This document shows positions 5,141 to 17,195 of a DNA stretch of 44,069 bases, one piece after another. The notes below the pieces were generated by a model. The model searched no databases, was not told the origin of the DNA, and saw only the letters and a list, made by a program, of their open reading frames with translations. The stretch lies in assembly GCA_029245725.1 (NCBI GenBank), contig JAQWOT010000165.1, positions 1 to 44,069 of the forward strand, given 5' to 3'. The DNA comes from SAR324 cluster bacterium (lineage in GTDB: Bacteria; SAR324; NAC60-12). Numbering within the stretch: the stretch's first letter is position 1; each line of letters starts with the position of its first letter. The position numbers and the translations under genes were made by a program.

Positions 5141-5827
5141 TCAATTCGAATATGAAATTTGCAGTGCTTTGGCTACCTTTTCCTGCATTGAAGGGAGCCA
5201 TTGGCTCCCCTCTTCGCTCGTGATGGCCAACCAGAATAAGAAGGCGCATGCCGCAATTACAAATAATCCAATGCCAAATCCACCTTTTTCTTTTTCACTC
5301 TCACGGTGAATGGGTTCGTTCAGTCCTTGCTGAATCACTTCCATTTCTTGAGGTGTGACATGATCTGCAGGGGATGGTGTTGGAATGTCGGCATTGACCC
5401 TACTTGGTGCACTGTTGTGGAGGAGTAATCCCTCCACTTCCTTTCTAAGTGTCTGAATATCTGAGGAGAGGTTACCAATCATTTGCTCGGTACGCTGAGA
5501 GATCTGCTTCTCCAACTCCAGAGTCTTCAACAATTCCGACTTTTCCAAGGTCAGCCCTTCTATCTGCTTTTTCAAAGATAATAACTCTTCTTGCAAAGCG
5601 ATGATTTGTTGAGTTGACTCTTGATCTGCTTTGCCTTTTCGGATTTTTGGAGTGGAAGTAGAATCTTCTTGGAAGGAAATTGCTTGCTGGATTTTTTGGA
5701 ATTGTTCTTCGTCCAGAAGTCTTCGTCGACCATCTTGATGAGGATTGATCTCCAGTTCCTTCATCAGACGATACAGCTTGGACTTTCCAATCTGTAGATC
5801 TTGAGTGAGTTGGGTCAGTGTAATCAT
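5141..5827 (-). CDS. HTH, coiled-coil protein with C-terminal membrane anchor
   Basis: A 228-residue protein from the ATG at 5827, which has GGAG six bases upstream; an ATG eight codons earlier (5851) has a poorer site. Order of parts: a winged HTH of MerR/excisionase type (residues 1-50, ITLTQLTQDLQIGKSKLYRL then DGRRRLLDEEQFQKI), a charged linker, a long heptad-rich coiled coil (about 72-135), a Pro-rich spacer, a single hydrophobic helix (about 182-202, GLFVIAACAFLFWLAI) and a short tail. I know no named family with this order. A DNA-binding or protein-binding head tethered to the inner membrane through a coiled coil is the simplest reading. It lies upstream (in genomic coordinates) of a second HTH/coiled-coil gene on the same strand, 173 bp apart. 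Confidence 0.75.
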   Translation of the reverse strand: MITLTQLTQDLQIGKSKLYRLMKELEINPHQDGRRRLLDEEQFQKIQQAISFQEDSTSTPKIRKGKADQESTQQIIALQEELLSLKKQIEGLTLEKSELLKTLELEKQISQRTEQMIGNLSSDIQTLRKEVEGLLLHNSAPSRVNADIPTPSPADHVTPQEMEVIQQGLNEPIHRESEKEKGGFGIGLFVIAACAFLFWLAITSEEGSQWLPSMQEKVAKALQISYSN

Positions 5828-6000
5828 CTTTAACTCCAATGTTTGATGCATACCTGCAGTATTTTATTCACTATCCATTAGTGATGGTACTGACGTGACG
5901 CTATGATAATTGTTTCATCTTTTTTTCCCATTAATTTTTTCTTATGGGAAAAGAATTAGTGTTTCCTCCTTTGATGATGATTTCAAAAGGCTAGATTTAA

Positions 6001-6729
6001 CTACCAATTTTTTCGAATGCTACTAACGATTGAGTTCAGCCGAGAGTCGCTGATCCCAAGTCCCTGCTCTGCAAGATGACTAGACAATTCATGCTTCACA
6101 TTTGAAGGCAGCCGAGAGGGCATTCCCCAAGGGAAAGTTTTTCTCAGCAAATTCTCAATAATGGCTTGTGCACCATTCGTTCGTTGGGACTCCTGTTGTT
6201 CATTTAAAGGAAATCCGTTTAATTTTTCTCCCATATACAATTGACCGCTGGCCAACTCATCAGCATTTAACTCCGACATCGAGGCCGACATTAAATTATT
6301 AGAAATATTTTTTTTGTATTTTTCAATTTCTTGTCGGAGTTTGAGATTTTCACTCTGAAAGTTCATCATGAGATCTTGCCACTGACTGACTTGTTCGATT
6401 AACTCAATATTTTGGGCCCTCTCTGCTTCTACCTGAGACTTTAGGAAGTCAATCTGATCACGTAATTCACTAATCAATAAATCCGGTTTTCCAGGATCAA
6501 TTGCCAATTGCAAGTCTTGAAGATTTTCCTCTTTCTCAAGTTTAGTCTCACTGGAAGAAATTACTTGGGTTTGTTTTTTTAATAAACCTTTTAAATGTTG
6601 ATAGTCTTCTTTTTGAATCAGGTGCTCATTGCCATTGGAAATCAGCTTGATTCGATAATCCCTGACGATTCTCTCAAATTCATCGCTAGAAATTCCTAAT
6701 TTTTTTGCGGCTTCAATCGCGGTTTTCAT
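6001..6729 (-). CDS. HTH, coiled-coil protein without membrane segment
   Basis: A 242-residue soluble protein. The N-terminal part (1-50) looks like the same winged-HTH type as its neighbour: AIEAAKKLGISSDEFERIVR, then NGNEHLIQKEDYQHL. A coiled coil covers about 83-142, followed by a linker and a C-terminal globular part (about 185-242, FPWGMPSRLPSNVKHELSSHL). No membrane segment. I do not recognise a named family. Because it shares architecture and strand with the membrane-anchored gene at 5141-5827, the two may be old paralogues that interact. No clear ribosome site precedes the start. A DNA-binding structural or partition-like role, comparable in shape to plasmid KfrA proteins, is possible but unsupported by any recognised motif. 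Confidence 0.7.
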   Translation of the reverse strand: MKTAIEAAKKLGISSDEFERIVRDYRIKLISNGNEHLIQKEDYQHLKGLLKKQTQVISSSETKLEKEENLQDLQLAIDPGKPDLLISELRDQIDFLKSQVEAERAQNIELIEQVSQWQDLMMNFQSENLKLRQEIEKYKKNISNNLMSASMSELNADELASGQLYMGEKLNGFPLNEQQESQRTNGAQAIIENLLRKTFPWGMPSRLPSNVKHELSSHLAEQGLGISDSRLNSIVSSIRKNW

Positions 6730-7938: not shown

Positions 7939-8580
7939 TTATTTGCTTGGAATCTCTCTTATAAATTCCTGGTAATATGATTCCTTAAACTCTTTAAATA
8001 ATCGGGTCAACTCCATCAATGGGTCCGGGTGATCATCAACCCTGAGATTACACCAAGGAAAAGGTTGCTCTCGAGCGCTCAACAAGGCTGCTGATTGTCT
8101 GCCACGCTTATCACCGCCAGCTTCTTCTCCAGCAAAGAGAGCCTGCAGTAGTCTGGATTCCAATGATCGCTCGGTAGACAATTTCAACGATTCTACGCAT
8201 GCGGCCAAAACAAAGGAGCCAGCAAGGTAATTCCCAGCGACACTGAAGTTCTCTCCCCTCACATGTCCTGCCCAGGGCTGGGCATCTGCTCCTGTCCAAG
8301 CCCATGAATTCCCATGACAATCAACTCCATGTACCTGTCTTTTTTGTGGTGTAGCATCTTGATCTAGGGCTTGTTCAAGTGCATCTTTCACAAGTTGTCC
8401 TTTGGCCAATGCTTCTAAACCCTGCAATCCAAGATGAGGATTTGTTGTAGATTGGGTAGCAATCGCTCCGATTCCTGCTGCCAGGTGAGGAACTAAAGCT
8501 CCCACAGCAAAGTGCTTGGTAGCAACTGCGATTCCGAAATGATTTTTCACCGGATCTCGAAGAACAATGGAATAAGTCAT
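7939..8580 (-). CDS. DUF1028 family protein (Ntn-hydrolase-like fold)
   Basis: A 213-residue protein from the ATG at 8580, chosen because AGGA lies seven bases upstream and because the family begins with M-T-x-S-I-V (here MTYSIVLRDP). The longer start at 8616 lies inside an operator palindrome. Typical family blocks are FGIAVATKHFAVGALVPH, GAIATQSTTNP and the C-terminal LRVDDHPDPL. Structures of relatives, as I recall, show an Ntn-hydrolase fold; if Met is removed, Thr2 would be the exposed N-terminal residue, as such hydrolases need, but activity is unproven. It is divergent from the peptide ABC operon and shares its control region, so a role in breaking down the imported amide or peptide is inferred. 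Cytoplasmic; no signal peptide. Confidence 0.85.
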   Translation of the reverse strand: MTYSIVLRDPVKNHFGIAVATKHFAVGALVPHLAAGIGAIATQSTTNPHLGLQGLEALAKGQLVKDALEQALDQDATPQKRQVHGVDCHGNSWAWTGADAQPWAGHVRGENFSVAGNYLAGSFVLAACVESLKLSTERSLESRLLQALFAGEEAGGDKRGRQSAALLSAREQPFPWCNLRVDDHPDPLMELTRLFKEFKESYYQEFIREIPSK

Positions 8581-8606: not shown

Positions 8607-8624
8607 AATTTATCATGATAAATT
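8607..8624. promoter_or_regulatory. Operator candidate 1: perfect 18-bp palindrome
   Basis: AATTTATCATGATAAATT is exactly self-complementary and lies immediately upstream of the -35 box of the ABC operon promoter. A near copy lies 31 bp downstream, centre to centre, about three helical turns. It is also inside the 5' leader of the divergent DUF1028 gene. Binding by the GntR protein encoded at the end of the operon is inferred. Confidence 0.65.
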
Positions 8625-8625
8625 A

Positions 8626-8653
8626 TTGACAGCATCAAATTTATCATTATAAA
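8626..8653 (+). promoter_or_regulatory. Sigma-70 type promoter of the peptide ABC operon
   Basis: TTGACA (8626-8631), a perfect -35, is followed after 16 bp by TATAAA (8648-8653), five of six to consensus. The start point would fall near 8660, giving a leader of about 50 nt to the ATG at 8708. The -10 lies within operator 2, so a bound protein would block RNA polymerase. Confidence 0.6.
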
Positions 8654-8655
8654 TT
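8638..8655. promoter_or_regulatory. Operator candidate 2: near copy of the 18-bp palindrome
   Basis: AATTTATCATTATAAATT differs from operator 1 at one position and covers the -10 box. The equal length, near-identity and 31-bp phasing with operator 1 point to cooperative binding of a dimeric repressor. Confidence 0.6.
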
Positions 8656-8707
8656 CGTTGCTTTGCCATCTTCAGGCAACTTTTTCTTACTCTCTTTGGA
8701 GAAGAAC

Positions 8708-10311: not shown

Positions 10312-10340
10312 ACTTCTCTTTTCGAAGCTAATTCTCATTG

Positions 10341-11297
10341 ATGTTGCGTTATACAATTCACCGACTGCTGTTGACCATCCCAGTACTAGTTGGGATTTCA
10401 GTGGTCGTTTTTCTGATCATGGCCCTAATTCCCGGAGATCCTGCAACAGCAATTCTCGGTGCATTTGCCACTCTAGAAAATGCTACGAAACTCAGAGCTG
10501 AATTGGGGTTGGATCGGCCATTGATTGAGCAATACTTCACTTGGGCTGGCAATCTTTTATCGGGTGATTTTGGGCGAAGCTATGCTCTGAATCGTCCAGT
10601 CTTAGATGAATTATTGGAACGTATGTGGCCTACCATCCTTTTGGCTGGGTCGGCGATGTGTGTCTGCGTTATACTTGGACTAATCTCTGGATTACTAGCT
10701 GCGGTCAAACAATATACATGGGTTGATCAGGGACTGACCCTTTTTACATTGATTGGGATTTCTGCACCCTCCTTCTGGTTAGGCCTAATGGCAGTTTCCC
10801 TGTTCACCGTTCAGTTGGGTTGGTTGCCTGCAAGCGGAATGTACACGCCCTATGGAGATGAGAGTCTGGGCGATTTACTGGTCCACCTGTTAATGCCCGC
10901 GATAACTCTTGGATTGGTTGCGTCGAGCGTAATTGCAAGATTGACCCGCACAAGCATGTTGGAACAGCTTCGTCAGGACTACGTTCGCACCGCGCGGGCA
11001 AAAGGAGAGCGAGAAACCGCAGTAGTGATTAAACATGCTTTTCGGAATGCGCTCGTTGGCTTGATTCCAGTTCTCGGTCTGCAAGCTGGATTCGTTTTAG
11101 GTGGCGCTGTCTACATAGAAACTGTCTTCCAGTGGCCAGGCATTGGCAGGATGCTGGTCAATGCAATCTCCACACGTGACATCCTCCTTGTTCAAGGGGG
11201 AGTAATGATGGTGGCTACAATCTACGTATTCTTCAACTTATTGGCTGATCTGATTCAGCATGCTTTGGATCCGCGAATCCAGCAGAGCCATGGTTGA
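10341..11297 (+). CDS. Peptide-type ABC transporter permease, DppB class
   Basis: A 318-residue inner-membrane protein with about six hydrophobic helices. The N-terminus MLRYTIHRLLLTIPVLVGIS is typical of DppB/OppB. The family markers LGLDRPLIEQYFTW and GDFGRSY follow helix 1. The ATPase-contact EAA loop is RTARAKGERETAVVIKHAFR. It forms the translocation pore with the DppC domain of the next protein. The ATG at 10341 is preferred to a TTG one codon earlier; neither has a clear ribosome site. Its stop overlaps the next start by 8 bp (ATGGTTGA), so translation is probably coupled. Confidence 0.92.
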   Translation: MLRYTIHRLLLTIPVLVGISVVVFLIMALIPGDPATAILGAFATLENATKLRAELGLDRPLIEQYFTWAGNLLSGDFGRSYALNRPVLDELLERMWPTILLAGSAMCVCVILGLISGLLAAVKQYTWVDQGLTLFTLIGISAPSFWLGLMAVSLFTVQLGWLPASGMYTPYGDESLGDLLVHLLMPAITLGLVASSVIARLTRTSMLEQLRQDYVRTARAKGERETAVVIKHAFRNALVGLIPVLGLQAGFVLGGAVYIETVFQWPGIGRMLVNAISTRDILLVQGGVMMVATIYVFFNLLADLIQHALDPRIQQSHG

Positions 11298-13215
11298 AAA
11301 AACCACTCCAGCACAAGAATTCTGGCAGAGACTGAATCGTAATCGATTGAGTACAGTAGGGCTACTGATGCTAGGACTCATCTTTTTGCTTTGTCTAATT
11401 TCTCCCTGGCTCCCCCTGCCTGATCCAGATGTTACTGATCTCGCAAATCGTCTCAAAACTCCTTTAACTCCAAATCACTGGCTTGGAACAGATCAGCTAG
11501 GAAGAGATCTTCTTTCAAGGCTGCTTTGGGGAACTCGAGTGAGCCTGGTGGTTGGGTTTGTGGCGACGCTTGCTGCAGCATTGGTTGGCAGTTTGATTGG
11601 TCTGGTCTCCGGGTATTTTCAAGGCTGGATTGATAGCGGACTTATGAGAGGGGTGGATACTTTGATGGCATTCCCGTACATGTTGCTGGCGCTGGCGATT
11701 GTGGCTGCCTTTGGCCCTGGACTCCTGAATGCCCTTTTTGCCATTGCGATAGTAAATGTACCCTTCTTCGCAAGAACGGTTCGAGGAGCAACGATCTCGT
11801 TAGTACAACGTGAATTTGTTCTGTCAGCAAGACTTGGAGGGGCAAGCCACTTTGGTGTACTGGGGCGTGAACTGCTGCCCAACATTCTACCTGTGATTAT
11901 AGTCACAATTTCAACTACGGCTGGATGGATGATTCTGGAAACTGCAGGATTGAGTTTCTTAGGCTTGGGTGCTCAGCCTCCGACTGCTGATCTTGGGTCC
12001 ATGCTGGGTGAAGGAAGAAAACTTCTCTTTACAGCACCCCATGTTTCTACACTTCCTGGGCTAGTAATCCTGATCTTAGTTATCTCCCTAAACCTGCTTG
12101 GAGATGGGGTCAGGGATGTACTGGATCCGCGCTTGCGGGGAGGAGCTTTACGCAGTCCACAACCAAGGACAGATGTCCTGAGTACTGAGCCGATCTCAAC
12201 TCAGGTTAGATCTACGGGGAAAATGTTTGTGCATAACCTAACAACAGAATTATTTCAGGAAGGACAAGCCCAGCCCCTGGTGAGAAATGTCAATTTTGAA
12301 TTAAGGCCTGGAGAGTGTTTGGGGCTTGTTGGTGAGTCAGGTAGTGGGAAGTCTGTGACCGCATTATCTCTTGCTGCCCTGGCTGCGTCCCCTCCTCTAC
12401 GAATTACTTCAGGAACTGTAGAGTTGGATGGAGAGGATATTCTGCGCCTTCCTCTTAGACTACTTCAGGATATCAGAGGCAAACGAGTCTCCTATATCTT
12501 TCAGGATCCTCTCGCAACTCTAAATCCAGTGTTGACGATTGGTGAACAACTGATTCAGGTGATACGCAGACATCAGTCACTTTCTTCAAAAGCAAGTTAT
12601 GCGGAAGCTTTGTGCCTGTTGTCCAAAGTAAGAATTCCTTCTCCTGAGACTAGGATGAAGGCTTATCCTCATCAGCTTTCTGGAGGAATGCGTCAACGAG
12701 TTTGCATTGCAATTGCCTTGGCTAATCATCCCGAAGTTTTGATTGCAGATGAGCCAACTACAGCTTTGGATGTAACGATTCAGGCTGAAGTCCTGTCATT
12801 ACTTAATGATTTGAGACAGACCACTCTTGAAGATAGCCAAACAGTACAAAGAACAGGTTTATCAGTCCTTTTCATTACTCATGATCTGGGGGTTGTCTCG
12901 ACAATATGTGAAAAAGTTGCAGTGATGTACGCTGGTCAAATCGTTGAGTTTGGGGAAACAAAATCAATTTTAGAATCTCCTGAGCATCCATATACACAAG
13001 CCTTGCTAGCATGTACACCACGACTTGGGGCTAAGCATAAGGTGCTGGGGGGCATACCAGGAACACCTCCCCCTCCGGGTGCGTACCCTTCAGGATGTGG
13101 TTTTATTACCAGATGTAATTCAGCGAAATCTATCTGCCAAGAGCCTGTCAATTTGATTCAACTACCCTCAGGCAGGCAAGTACGTTGTGTTCTCAAGCAG
13201 GATGCAAATGCCTGA
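11290..13215 (+). CDS. Peptide-type ABC transporter permease-ATPase fusion (DppC-DppD)
   Basis: A single 641-residue chain. Residues 1-285 are a DppC-type permease: N-terminal LNRNRLSTVG, HWLGTDQLGRDLLSRL, and the EAA loop SARLGGASHFGVLGRELLPN (179-198). A short linker (about 285-310) leads to a DppD-type ATPase: Walker A GESGSGKS 348-355, Q-loop near 405, signature LSGGM 463-467, Walker B VLIADEP 483-489, H-loop H531, and the C-terminal oligopeptide/dipeptide Cys motif GCGFITRCN. The reading frame is continuous with no sign of a lost stop codon. Such fusions exist in other bacteria. ATG 11290 is chosen because it aligns with normal DppC starts; an in-frame ATG at 11260 would add ten non-family residues. 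It overlaps dppF by 8 bp. Confidence 0.92.
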   Translation: MVEKTTPAQEFWQRLNRNRLSTVGLLMLGLIFLLCLISPWLPLPDPDVTDLANRLKTPLTPNHWLGTDQLGRDLLSRLLWGTRVSLVVGFVATLAAALVGSLIGLVSGYFQGWIDSGLMRGVDTLMAFPYMLLALAIVAAFGPGLLNALFAIAIVNVPFFARTVRGATISLVQREFVLSARLGGASHFGVLGRELLPNILPVIIVTISTTAGWMILETAGLSFLGLGAQPPTADLGSMLGEGRKLLFTAPHVSTLPGLVILILVISLNLLGDGVRDVLDPRLRGGALRSPQPRTDVLSTEPISTQVRSTGKMFVHNLTTELFQEGQAQPLVRNVNFELRPGECLGLVGESGSGKSVTALSLAALAASPPLRITSGTVELDGEDILRLPLRLLQDIRGKRVSYIFQDPLATLNPVLTIGEQLIQVIRRHQSLSSKASYAEALCLLSKVRIPSPETRMKAYPHQLSGGMRQRVCIAIALANHPEVLIADEPTTALDVTIQAEVLSLLNDLRQTTLEDSQTVQRTGLSVLFITHDLGVVSTICEKVAVMYAGQIVEFGETKSILESPEHPYTQALLACTPRLGAKHKVLGGIPGTPPPPGAYPSGCGFITRCNSAKSICQEPVNLIQLPSGRQVRCVLKQDANA

Positions 13216-14179
13216 GCATCTTTTGCAATTTGATCGCGTTACGAAAGAGTTTGACCTACGTAAGAACTGGTTTGGCAAAACGTCGAAGAGATTTCGGGCG
13301 GTTAATGAGGTGACGTGGCAGGTCGAGCCAGGAACAGCTCTGGGAATCGTGGGAGAGTCAGGTTGTGGTAAGTCAACAATGGCACGCATGGCAGTTGGAC
13401 TTGAGTTGCCCACTTCTGGAGAGATCCGCTTCGCAGGAAAAACGTTGGGCAAGTGGTTGAAGGAAGAAGCCATGATGCTACGACGATCTGTGCAGATGGT
13501 TTTTCAGGATCCTTCAGCGTCCCTGAATCCAAGGCAACGCATCCGAGAAATTCTGGAACTGCAACTTAAACGGTTGACAGATTTCAGGGCAGAGCAGCGA
13601 ATGCAGCGAATGGAAGAGGTTTTGGAACAGGTACAACTTCTCTTGGCAACGCTTGAACGATATCCTCATGAATTTTCTGGGGGACAGGCCCAAAGAATCA
13701 GCATTGCTCGTGCGCTGATTTCAAAGCCAAAACTCTTGTTGCTTGATGAACCAGTTTCTGCGTTGGATGTTTCTGTCCAAGCACAAATTCTCTTGTTGCT
13801 GGAAGAGATGCGAAAGGAGTTGGGGGTTACCTACGTTTTCATCAGTCATGATCTGGCCGTCGTCGAACAGCTTTGTCCAAGTGTATTGGTCATGTACGCC
13901 GGTTCGATTGTTGAAAGTGGCCCAACCAACCAGCTTTTTCAGCAACGTAGACACCCCTACACGGATTTGCTGATCAGAAGTGTTCCCATGCCTGGAAAAT
14001 CTCTGGAATTGAAAAGCGAGGAGATGGCGGATTTGAAAAATCCTCAAGGCTGTGCTTTCCGTAATCGCTGCCCAAAAGCTAATCACCAATGTTCACAGGA
14101 TCCAATATTGAAAGAAGTTTCGGGCTCCATTGGAGGACATGAGTGTGCTTGCCACTATCCATTAAGTGTTGTGGCTTGA
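13208..14179 (+). CDS. Peptide-type ABC transporter ATP-binding protein, DppF class
   Basis: A 323-residue cytoplasmic ATPase, partner of the DppD domain of the preceding fusion. Motifs: Walker A GESGCGKST, Q-loop VFQDPSASLNP, signature FSGGQAQRISIARAL, Walker B LLLLDEPVSALD, H-loop ISHDL. The C-terminal Cys motif typical of these ATPases is GCAFRNRCPKANHQC. The start at 13208 is set by AGG six bases upstream and by an 8-bp overlap with the preceding stop (ATGCCTGA), the same arrangement as at the previous junction. ATG 13202 is a close alternative. It powers import with the fusion protein. The M42 peptidase gene begins inside its 3' end. Confidence 0.92.
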   Translation: MPEHLLQFDRVTKEFDLRKNWFGKTSKRFRAVNEVTWQVEPGTALGIVGESGCGKSTMARMAVGLELPTSGEIRFAGKTLGKWLKEEAMMLRRSVQMVFQDPSASLNPRQRIREILELQLKRLTDFRAEQRMQRMEEVLEQVQLLLATLERYPHEFSGGQAQRISIARALISKPKLLLLDEPVSALDVSVQAQILLLLEEMRKELGVTYVFISHDLAVVEQLCPSVLVMYAGSIVESGPTNQLFQQRRHPYTDLLIRSVPMPGKSLELKSEEMADLKNPQGCAFRNRCPKANHQCSQDPILKEVSGSIGGHECACHYPLSVVA

Positions 14180-15222
14180 AGAATTCAAATACTTTCCTCG
14201 TTGAGACCCTGAGAAGTCTGACCAGTATCCCAAGCCCTAGCGGACGAACAGAGCAAATTGCTGGCTGGACGCTGAAACTACTTCAATCATGGGGCTTTTC
14301 ACCCGAACAAACACGTCGTGGAACAATCAAGCTTAAGCTACCGGGTAAAGACACTAGTCAAGCACGAGCTTTAACAGCTCACCTGGATACACTTGGAGCG
14401 ATGGTGCAGCATCTCAAAGACAATGGCCGATGTGCACTGGCGCCTGTTGGAACTTGGTCCAGCCACTTCGCAGAGGGCGCCAGAGTGACCCTCCACACCG
14501 ATGAACATGAATATCGAGGGACGATCTTACCACTCTTGGCTTCAGGCCATGCCTTTAATGAAAAAGTGGATCAGCAACCTGTCAACTGGGAACAAGTAGA
14601 GCTACGAATCGATGAGTACTGCAATAGTTTTCAGGAATTGGAAAATCTAGGTGTTCAACCAGGTGATTTTGTCTCTATTGATACAGGCACCGAGGTTTTA
14701 GAAAATGGGTACATCTTCTCAAGGCATTTGGATGACAAAGCCGGAGTGGCGGCTCTACTGAACGCTCTAAGACTGATTCACGAGGAGGGTCATCAACTTC
14801 CTTGTACATCGTATCTGATTTTGACAGTGCGCGAAGAAATTGGAGATGGAGGATCCGCTGTTCTTTCTCCGGACGTCTGGGAACTGGTAACAATTGACAA
14901 TGGAGTTCAGGCTGGCACTCAGCATTCCAGAGAGTTTGGAGTAACCTTAGCGATGGGGGACAAGACGGGGCCATTTGATCGAAGACTTGTCTTACATCTC
15001 GACCGACTTTGCAAAGAGAACCAACTGTCTCATCAGCGAGATTTATTCAAACACTATCGTTCTGACCTAGCAGCAGTAGTAGAAGCAGGTTTTGACGTTC
15101 GAACTGTTCTGATTGTGATCGGATTGGATGGAAGTCATGGTCATGAACGGACTCATCTTGATGCAATTCGTACTGCTTCTGAACTCGCTAATCTTTATTT
15201 ACGTTCCCCACTTCTGGACTAG
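14143..15222 (+). CDS. M42-family metallopeptidase, NAGGN-system-like
   Basis: A 359-residue cytoplasmic metallohydrolase from GTG 14143, which has GGAGG six bases upstream inside dppF; a TTG at 14176 is the alternative. Dinuclear-metal residues fit the M42/M20 pattern: AHLDT (H80, D82), RHLDDKAGVAAL (D197 or D198), REEIGDGG (E231, E232), IDNG (D252) and SHGHERTH (H332-H338). The blocks GTWSSHFAEGARVT, ASGHAFNEKVDQQPV and FKHYRSDLAAVVEAG closely resemble, from memory, the M42 family named for the N-acetylglutaminylglutamine amide (NAGGN) osmolyte cluster. No NAGGN synthesis genes are here; instead it follows a peptide importer and precedes an M20 amidohydrolase. It likely removes residues from an imported blocked or amidated peptide. 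Confidence 0.85.
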   Translation: MCLPLSIKCCGLKNSNTFLVETLRSLTSIPSPSGRTEQIAGWTLKLLQSWGFSPEQTRRGTIKLKLPGKDTSQARALTAHLDTLGAMVQHLKDNGRCALAPVGTWSSHFAEGARVTLHTDEHEYRGTILPLLASGHAFNEKVDQQPVNWEQVELRIDEYCNSFQELENLGVQPGDFVSIDTGTEVLENGYIFSRHLDDKAGVAALLNALRLIHEEGHQLPCTSYLILTVREEIGDGGSAVLSPDVWELVTIDNGVQAGTQHSREFGVTLAMGDKTGPFDRRLVLHLDRLCKENQLSHQRDLFKHYRSDLAAVVEAGFDVRTVLIVIGLDGSHGHERTHLDAIRTASELANLYLRSPLLD

Positions 15223-15228
15223 AATAGA

Positions 15229-16458
15229 ATGCTCAAAATCAATGGAGCCCGACTCTGGGATAGCTTGATGGAAATGGCAAAAATTGGGGTGACTCCAGAG
15301 GGAGGAGTCACCAGGGTGGCGGTCAGTGAAGAGGATCGGCTTGGTCGGGATTTGCTCAGAAAGTGGGCAACTCCACTTGTCGAAGATTTCCACTTTGATG
15401 AAGTAGGTAACATGTTTTTCGTTCGTCATGGGCTGCAACCAGAATCTCCAATGATCCTGACAGGGAGCCATCTAGACACACAAATACATGGCGGTCGATT
15501 TGACGGTGCTTTTGGTGTGATGGCTGGCTTGGAAGTCCTAAGAACTCTATCTGAAGAGGATATCCGATTGCCATATGGAATTGGCTTAGTAGCCTGGACA
15601 AATGAGGAGGAAGCTCGTTACTGCCCCGCCATGGGCTCAGCAGTTTTTGTTGGCAAGCAAGACCTGCAATCAGCATTGGATTGTGTTGGACTCAACGGGA
15701 AGGTCTTTGGTGAGGAACTGAAGAAAATTGGTTATCTTGGCAGAGCACTAGAATTAAATATTTCAGCTTACTTGGAGGCCCATATTGAGCAAGGGCCAGT
15801 ACTTGAGAATGAAAAGATCCAAATTGGCGTAGTCTCTAGCGCACAGGGTCAAATCGCTATGAATGCTGAAATTATTGGAGAGGCTGGCCACTCGGGAACT
15901 GTTCCTATGAGATTACGCAAAGACGCCTTGGTTTGTGCGATTGCTGTGATCAATTCCTGTCGAAATCTTGTCGTCGAGGAGGGGAATGGGGTCTTTACTG
16001 TTGGAGCCTTCAAACTTGAGCCGAATTCAAGGACCACAATTCCAGATAAAATTTCTTTTGGGATTGATTTGCGTCACCCAGACGCAGATTCACTCAAAAA
16101 TTTGCAGAATTTAATAAAGAATAAAATTAAAGAGAAGGTGGCAGAACATTGCTGTCAGGAAAGAATTGAAGATCTTTTTCACAAAGAACCGGTTGTCTTT
16201 ACCGATTCATGTGTCGAAAGTGTTCAATCTGCGAGTGATCAACTGGGATATAGCTCTCTTGCGATGCCATCAGGTGCGTTCCATGATGCATGTCTACTGG
16301 CTAGCCAGGTCCCCACTGGAATGATTTTTGTGCCAAGTCAAAAAGGAGTAAGCCATAATCCCACGGAGTATTCCTCTCCTGAACAGCTAGAAAAAGGCGC
16401 GAATGTGTTGCTTCACGCTTTGCTGAATTTGGCTGAAAAGGGAGTTCCTTTGTCATGA
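15229..16458 (+). CDS. M20-family N-carbamoyl-amino-acid hydrolase / ureidopropionase-type amidohydrolase
   Basis: A 409-residue cytoplasmic enzyme of the hydantoinase/carbamoylase (HyuC, AllC-like) group. Metal-site motifs: GSHLDTQIHGGRFDGAFGV (H81, D83, D92) and WTNEEEARYCPAMGS (E126-E128). The dimerisation/substrate region GEAGHSGTVPMRLRKDA and the C-terminal SGAFHDACLLA ... PSQKGVSHNP blocks are present. Known members hydrolyse N-carbamoyl amino acids, beta-ureidopropionate or allantoate; which applies here is not visible. It lies six bases after the M42 peptidase and overlaps the regulator by ATGA, so it belongs to the same transcript. It probably acts on the product of the M42 or DUF1028 step. 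Confidence 0.9.
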   Translation: MLKINGARLWDSLMEMAKIGVTPEGGVTRVAVSEEDRLGRDLLRKWATPLVEDFHFDEVGNMFFVRHGLQPESPMILTGSHLDTQIHGGRFDGAFGVMAGLEVLRTLSEEDIRLPYGIGLVAWTNEEEARYCPAMGSAVFVGKQDLQSALDCVGLNGKVFGEELKKIGYLGRALELNISAYLEAHIEQGPVLENEKIQIGVVSSAQGQIAMNAEIIGEAGHSGTVPMRLRKDALVCAIAVINSCRNLVVEEGNGVFTVGAFKLEPNSRTTIPDKISFGIDLRHPDADSLKNLQNLIKNKIKEKVAEHCCQERIEDLFHKEPVVFTDSCVESVQSASDQLGYSSLAMPSGAFHDACLLASQVPTGMIFVPSQKGVSHNPTEYSSPEQLEKGANVLLHALLNLAEKGVPLS

Positions 16459-17195
16459 CAGCAGAGGTGCCAAAGAGTATCCGTAAGAGATCCGATTTGG
16501 TTGCTGACCAAATCAAGGAGGCTATCATTAGTAAAAAGTTACCTCCTGGTGAAAGGCTCTCTGATGAAAAAGATTTTCTGAAGACTTATCGAGTCAGCAA
16601 GGGGACAATGCGGGAAGCCCTGAAATCACTGGAGGTGCAAGGACTCGTCAACATCAAAACTGGTCCAGGGGGCGGAGCCTCTGTTGCGAGAGTCAGTGCT
16701 GAAAAAACGAATGAGCTATTGTGGAATTACTTTTTTTCAAGAAACGTGTCCCTAGAAAATATCTATGCTGTCCGCAAACTCGTAGAACCTGAACTAGCAG
16801 CAAGTGTAGCAGAGCATCTGGATGAAGAAGACCTGCAACTGCTCGAGCAATCGGTTGGCCACTGTTCTCTCCAGGGATTTGAAGGTAATGATCGAGCACA
16901 GCGTATTCAGGAATTAGATTTCCATTTGGTGATGGCAGATTCCTGTCCAAATCCTGTGTTGGCTTTTTTTACAAAATTCATTCTCAGTCTACTGGCACGC
17001 ATCATTATTCATGAGGAACTAACCCCCGATCCACACACCAGCGCTCAACACAGCCAACAAGGCCTTGACTACCATCAAGCTTTGCTACTGGCTTTTAGAG
17101 AACGTAACCCTCAGAAAGCTCGACAAGTGATGATCGAGCATATGGATTCAGCAGAATCCTTCATGTTGAATATCAGCCGTCCAAAGACTTCCTAG
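16455..17195 (+). CDS. GntR-family transcriptional regulator, FadR/FCD subfamily
   Basis: A 246-residue DNA-binding regulator. The N-terminal winged HTH spans about residues 12-80 (LVADQIKEAIISKKLPPGER, then VSKGTMREALKSLEVQGLV). The all-helical FCD effector domain follows (about 100-240), with the expected metal/ligand-site arginine and histidines in IYAVRKLVEPELA, ELDFHLVMA and YHQALLLAF. It overlaps the amidohydrolase stop by 4 bp (ATGA) and is the last gene of the ABC operon. It is therefore the natural candidate to bind the two palindromes at 8607-8655 and to respond to the imported compound or a breakdown product. The palindromes do not show the classical GT-N3-AC core of FadR-type sites, so this assignment is an inference. 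Confidence 0.92.
   Translation: MTAEVPKSIRKRSDLVADQIKEAIISKKLPPGERLSDEKDFLKTYRVSKGTMREALKSLEVQGLVNIKTGPGGGASVARVSAEKTNELLWNYFFSRNVSLENIYAVRKLVEPELAASVAEHLDEEDLQLLEQSVGHCSLQGFEGNDRAQRIQELDFHLVMADSCPNPVLAFFTKFILSLLARIIIHEELTPDPHTSAQHSQQGLDYHQALLLAFRERNPQKARQVMIEHMDSAESFMLNISRPKTS

Follow-up and report, generated by a model that had tools for sequence, protein, structure and literature searches.

In a SAR324 cluster bacterium, we found two 18-bp palindromes that lie 31 bp apart on the predicted promoter of an operon encoding a peptide transporter; they are conserved in related genomes and are associated there with the gene for a GntR-type regulator, which is the last gene of the operon. Judging from sequence comparisons, the two palindromes are probably twin operators of the operon's own FCD-type GntR repressor, which would bind them cooperatively and be released by a ligand. 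Hereafter, the window refers to the whole stretch of DNA that was analyzed (44,069 nucleotides).

The first candidate operator, O1 (8607..8624, no strand assigned), is a perfect 18-bp palindrome, AATTTATCATGATAAATT, with 9 of 9 symmetric pairs, and the second, O2 (8638..8655, likewise without strand), AATTTATCATTATAAATT, has one mismatch to O1 and retains 8 of 9 pairs; both have counterparts in the loci L041-L044. The core of the operator reads TTATC-AT-GATAA. The starts of the two sites, and hence their centers, are 31 bp apart, i.e., 2.95 turns at 10.5 bp per turn; the palindromes, the single mismatch, and the separation by almost three helical turns are thus as the original prediction had described them. 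Two matches to the 18-mer at up to 3 mismatches were detected in the window, compared to a mean of 0.04 in 100 shuffles, and of 5000 dinucleotide shuffles of the 127-bp intergenic region, 3 contained a perfect 18-bp palindrome. In the complete set of contigs of the same genome (4.4 Mb), 18 places match the 18-mer at up to 3 mismatches: O1 at 0, O2 at 1, and the other 16 at 3, so that nothing besides O1 and O2 was found with fewer than 3 mismatches. A chance palindrome was ruled out by these shuffles and by the search of the genome, and the uniqueness of the pair in its own genome points to a local regulator. A genome-wide regulon was also considered and rejected, since no shared pattern was seen in the five of the sixteen 3-mismatch places that were inspected (L003, L004, L006, L007, and L008). 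The place in L003 overlaps an ATG start codon, and start codons reading TCATGAAAA, as in this case, may contribute to the 18:1 excess of 18-mer matches over matches to the reversed pattern in this genome.

The two sites occupy the control region between divergent genes, a setting that the original prediction had not mentioned. To the left lies a gene for a DUF1028 family protein of 213 aa (7939..8580, minus strand; Pfam PF06267, E 5e-67), the start of which is most likely 8580. To the right, on the plus strand, the operon begins with a gene for an oppA-like peptide-binding protein (SBP_bac_5, PF00496; 8708..10273) and continues with the transporter genes (10338..14179), whose reading frames match the Pfam families BPD_transp_1, OppC_N, ABC_tran, and oligo_HPY over cut-off: the permease oppB (10338-11297), a fused permease-ATPase oppC-oppD (11260-13215), seen with Pfam as a single 651-residue reading frame, and the ATPase oppF (13187-14179). 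These are followed by an M42 peptidase (14143..15222; a member of NCBIfam TIGR03106, 449.2 bits, cut-off 397.75), an M20 hydantoinase/carbamoylase-type amidase (15229..16458; TIGR01879 over cut-off), and the FCD-type GntR regulator of 246 aa (16455..17195; Pfam GntR and FCD), the start of which overlaps the preceding stop codon. All seven operon frames have Pfam families, and gntR is the only regulator among them.

Several features of this neighborhood were recorded in passing. Frames of 646-666 residues are found at the place corresponding to the fused permease-ATPase in G002, G006, G007, and G046. The family TIGR03106 is named for NAGGN osmolyte gene trios, and members of it were detected in 4 of the 12 genomes examined for it, all belonging to the genus of the window; NAGGN osmolyte synthesis was rejected as the purpose of the operon, because TIGR03104 yielded no match over cut-off in the same genome, only two weak ones (36 and 30 bits). 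The M42 peptidase may take part in the breakdown of imported blocked dipeptides. On the minus strand, two adjacent proteins (5141-5851 and 6001-6729) appear by eye to contain coiled-coil-like stretches and perhaps an N-terminal helix-turn-helix, and no Pfam match was obtained for either.

The predicted promoter of the operon is interleaved with the palindromes. As originally noted, TTGACA (8626..8631, plus strand) lies between O1 and O2, and TATAAA (8648..8653, plus strand), the predicted -10 hexamer, lies inside O2; together they constitute a promoter of the sigma-70 type, in which the spacer is 16 bp and 11 of 12 bases agree with the consensus. In five of five close loci, the -35 hexamer is in the same place, as TTGACA (four loci) or TTGACG (one). 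A promoter scan that requires T as the last base of the -10 hexamer offers TAAATT (8650-8655) with an 18-bp spacer as an alternative, and either choice falls within O2. Transcription would start near 8660, in which case the operators would be centered at about -44 (O1) and -13 (O2). No strong divergent promoter was found on the minus strand of the window, where the best candidate reaches 9 of 12, with a perfect TATAAT and a poor -35. It should also be mentioned that the oppA leader contains, just past the presumed start, a terminator-like hairpin, TTGCCATCTTCAGGCAA, followed by T-rich DNA (8663-8679, plus strand); the hairpin is also present in the three control regions of the same genus that were compared, and it is not evident in G007.

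This geometry can be read in two ways with respect to the sign of regulation. If the same GntR protein were an activator or a dual regulator, O1 would serve to recruit RNA polymerase and O2 to tune its activity; the center of O1, about 44 bp upstream of the presumed start, is near the position that the class II rule assigns to activators, and the promoter between the sites in G007 is weak (TTGACG with TAAATT, 9 of 12), as an activator would need. However, the best -10 candidate falls within the downstream site in all six genomes that have an ortholog of this GntR, and in five of the six (the exception being G007) the promoter scores 10 or 11 of 12, which suits a repressed promoter. We consider activation quite improbable, and the layout would fit cooperative repression, as the original prediction had it.

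Comparison of control regions showed that the palindromes are conserved in relatives, so that the lack of conservation which the original prediction had named as a refuting outcome was not observed. Using a threshold of E 1e-30 or better, we found an ortholog of this GntR in 6 of 52 genomes of the phylum (its own genome counted; the genomes are mostly fragmented assemblies), and phased sites are present upstream of oppA in 6 of 6. Five of these have near-perfect pairs, spaced 31 bp in the window's genome, G001, G005, and G004, and 30 bp in G007. The last belongs to another genus and has two perfect copies; its operators and those of the window are alike at 35 of 36 bases, compared to 30 of 100 bases in the upstream flanks and 15 of 50 in the downstream flanks. 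The sixth genome, G006, represents a third genus, with a GntR of about 42% identity; oppA is preceded there by three degenerate copies, spaced 31/31, with TTGATA between the second and the third and TATAAT within the third. These copies agree with the 18-mer at 12, 14, and 13 of 18 bases, and the number of symmetric pairs, out of 9, is 3, 6, and 4, respectively. Taken alone, the best of them is unremarkable, as it was equalled in 810 of 20000 shuffles of the 191-bp control region; the best pair was equalled in 1 of 20000, and a triple as good was obtained in none of 20000 at 31/31 and in none of 3000 when the two spacings could take any equal value between 18 and 60 bp. The spacing is thus conserved across the six genomes (31, 31, 31, 31, and 30 bp, and 31/31 bp), as expected for sites on the same helical face, with the qualification that four of the six belong to one genus and have nearly identical control regions, so that the comparison represents about three independent lineages. 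A contig binned as Planctomycetaceae (L080:1-900) carries the end of the M20 gene and GntR residues up to 131 (96% identical), followed by unrelated sequence; it is probably chimeric or misbinned and was set aside as uninformative.

The same genomes bear on whether the two sites act together. In an alternative reading, which overlaps the preferred one as to the protein, each palindrome serves its own promoter, O1 that of the DUF1028 gene and O2 that of the opp operon, and the distance between them has no significance of its own. The location of the sites between divergent genes in the genus of the window agrees with this, and in G006, where the divergent gene is an M20 amidase, that gene could use the third, upstream site. 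Moreover, of 100 double-site divergons of the FadR subfamily that include the gene of the transcription factor, 71 were judged separate and 29 cooperative in PMC4494728, which counts somewhat against cooperation. On the other hand, in G007 no DUF1028 gene was found and the gene upstream of oppA has the same orientation as oppA, yet both sites are perfect, which counts for cooperation; in the window, the divergent gene has nothing better than the 9-of-12 minus-strand promoter with its poor -35. Separate action of the two sites is, in our estimate, unlikely.

We also examined loci and genomes that lack this GntR. A relaxed scan for the paired pattern across the phylum returned 5 of 52 genomes, namely four of the six genomes above (G000, G001, G005, and G007) as well as G009 with an unrelated tandem repeat; the relaxed pattern misses G004, which has a C in one arm, and the degenerate sites of G006. 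The G009 repeat (G009:C4:348090-348149) consists of a 16-bp direct repeat, TTATCAGTATAACTTT, arranged head-to-tail in apparently four copies (two overlapping matches), and is unrelated to the operators. In G046, an oppA gene 74% identical to that of the window is located in a cluster that includes the gene of an IclR regulator (PF01614 and PF09339 over cut-off), without an ortholog of this GntR; in G022 and G025, DUF1028 genes 60-63% identical to that of the window are found in other surroundings, also without an ortholog. No place at up to 4 mismatches to the 18-mer was found in the stretches of these three loci (in G046, the stretch before oppA), and those of G046 and G025 contain two scattered 5-mismatch places each. 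It should be noted that G046 is the one oppA control without this GntR: G002 (L109) also has oppA, and its contig begins just before that gene, leaving the control region outside.

Single matches to the 18-mer are a different matter. Among the matches listed, at least 46 of 58 relatives and outgroups have the 18-mer at up to 3 mismatches, and such loose single matches, being widespread, mean little. Four of the listed matches at 1-2 mismatches were inspected. One genome of the same family, G015, has a lone intergenic copy identical to O2 (L052:1501-1518, corresponding to G015:C48:14757-14774); its leftward neighbor resembles kynureninase by inspection, and the other neighbor reads rightward. 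This genome has no match to this GntR, and no second site at up to 5 mismatches was found in 3 kb around the copy, which counts against a strict link between the site and the GntR protein. An isolated perfect dyad, GATTTATCATGATAAATC, is found in an intergenic position in G056, outside the phylum. Both look-alikes are single sites, not phased pairs, and they may have arisen by chance in AT-rich DNA or be bound by something else.

The original prediction had offered a choice between a GntR protein with an unusual site and some other regulator. The second option, binding of the palindromes by a regulator not linked to the operon, draws on the G015 copy in a genome without a match to this GntR, and on a core without GT...AC, which differs from most FCD sites (PMC4494728). 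Against it, O1 and O2 are the only places in their genome at 0-1 mismatch, phased sites accompany gntR in three genera, none turned up in three loci that lack the gene, and gntR is the operon's sole regulator gene. The first option is favored by this uniqueness, by the co-occurrence, by the absence at the three loci, and by two substitutions in the protein described below, and the second is retained as an improbable rival. Co-occurrence of GntR and sites could, it is true, mean simply that both belong to the operon.

The GntR protein itself is, by profile, a two-domain member of its family, with an N-terminal GntR winged helix-turn-helix (PF00392, 43.2 bits, cut-off 27) and a C-terminal FCD domain (PF07729, 72.2 bits, cut-off 24.3). 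An AlphaFold2 model of the protein (mean pLDDT 85.3), which has 11 residues ahead of its first helix, aligns with FCD proteins, and 6az6 gave the best match (residues 12-237, Z 19.5, rmsd 3.6, 207 aligned). By sequence profile the closest solved relative is NanR; the curated NanR model NF003011 gave 100.4 bits, below its cut-off of 260. Residues 17-70 match FadR 13-66, a stretch of equal length, and place K39 and K49 at FadR R35 and R45, both of which make specific Arg-G contacts according to Table 1 of PMC4494728. Lysine is found at position 39 in 6 of 6 distinct orthologs and in none of 23 other GntR-type rows from related genomes (R in 16 of 23), and at position 49 in 6 of 6 orthologs and 1 of 23 other rows (R in 21 of 23); the G004 ortholog in this comparison is a fragment. 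The presence of lysines in place of R35 and R45 in the ortholog group agrees with an operator that lacks the common GT...AC core. This is a correlation, and lysines at the DNA-reading positions are what a changed operator would predict.

The original prediction was also right that the core is not GT-N3-AC. Sites of the FadR subfamily usually contain GT-N2/3-AC, with the consensus TKGT/ACMA (PMC4494728), and no GT...AC core of this kind is present in O1 or O2. Exceptions within the FCD subfamily have been published, i.e., the BioR operator TTATMKATAA and the direct TGGTATAW repeats of NanR (PMC4494728). The BioR consensus does not describe O1 and O2 either: the arms agree, and the spacing between them is 4, not 2. 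AlkR, a VanR-type FCD protein whose site is of the usual GT...AC type (PMC12042122), was considered and rejected.

In the mechanism that we favor, a GntR dimer would occupy each dyad, and with centers about three helical turns apart both dimers would lie on one face of the DNA and be able to touch. With O2 covering the -10 hexamer and O1 abutting the -35, the bound repressor would exclude RNA polymerase from the oppABCDF-M42-M20-gntR operon and might also affect the divergent DUF1028 gene. Release would be brought about by a ligand, for which a peptide-derived compound that the operon handles is a plausible candidate, and, with gntR inside the operon, the circuit would be self-limiting. The location over the promoter, the near-constant phasing, and the third copy in G006 favor cooperative repression. 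What the comparisons show directly is the sites, where they lie on a predicted promoter, that they are conserved, and that they go with the GntR gene; that this GntR binds them, represses and does not activate, acts cooperatively, and responds to a ligand is our inference. A broader and more tentative proposal, which we regard as possible and somewhat doubtful, is that these proteins form a branch of FCD/GntR regulators of the SAR324 lineage with a switched DNA code, in which R,R has become K,K and the site is a TTTAT-N4-ATAAA dyad without GT...AC; the recognized signal would then be the phasing of an array, two or three dyads every 30-31 bp on one helix face, and not a single dyad alone.

No earlier description of the 18-mer or its cores was found in open-licence papers, the lone text match being an unrelated malaria paper, and searches of the open-licence literature for SAR324 with GntR, DUF1028 with GntR, and FCD with two operators and helical turns returned nothing. 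Judged by the open-licence papers searched, a regulator-operator pair may not have been proposed before for the SAR324 marine group. The switch is of a fairly ordinary kind, though sound, and it offers a testable example of an FCD regulator whose operator breaks the GT...AC rule and whose DNA-reading residues have changed correspondingly. Each element has precedent; new to our knowledge are the operator sequence, the group of orthologs, and the joint occurrence of a phased array of long non-GT dyads and a K/K pair that replaces R/R.

The closest parallels are found among known GntR-type systems. BioR, the FCD/GntR regulator of biotin genes in alpha-proteobacteria, resembles the case described here in being an FCD protein, in its TTAT...ATAA dyad without GT...AC, and in the two tandem boxes present at some of its targets (PMC4494728, PMC4554459); the distance between TTAT and ATAA is 2 bp in BioR sites and 4 bp here (TTAT-CATG-ATAA), and the genes and taxa are different (PMC4494728). 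FadR of E. coli shares the arrangement of a winged helix with a helical effector domain, whereas it has R35 and R45 in place of K39 and K49, and the operator of the window lacks TKGT/ACMA (PMC4494728). In E. coli, three NanR dimers cooperatively fill a triple repeat (PMC8012715), so that both systems have several dimers (here proposed) on an operator that is repeated, departs from the standard, and lies in a promoter. The repeats bound by NanR are closely spaced direct copies of GGTATA, which it contacts by means of an N-terminal extension of 32 residues (PMC8012715), whereas the repeats described here are dyads about 31 bp apart and the model has 11 residues before the first helix. Atu1419, a tetrameric VanR-type regulator, can loop between distant sites (PMC7797058). 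Comparable phasing is known from BusR, a protein with a GntR-type DNA-binding domain, whose two motifs and their spacer together span three turns, with both motifs on the same side of the DNA (PMC8517857); two motifs on one side, about three helical turns in all, and a fixed spacing are shared, whereas BusR has an RCK_C effector domain and forms a coiled-coil tetramer (PMC8517857), and the regulator described here has an FCD domain and no known ruler.
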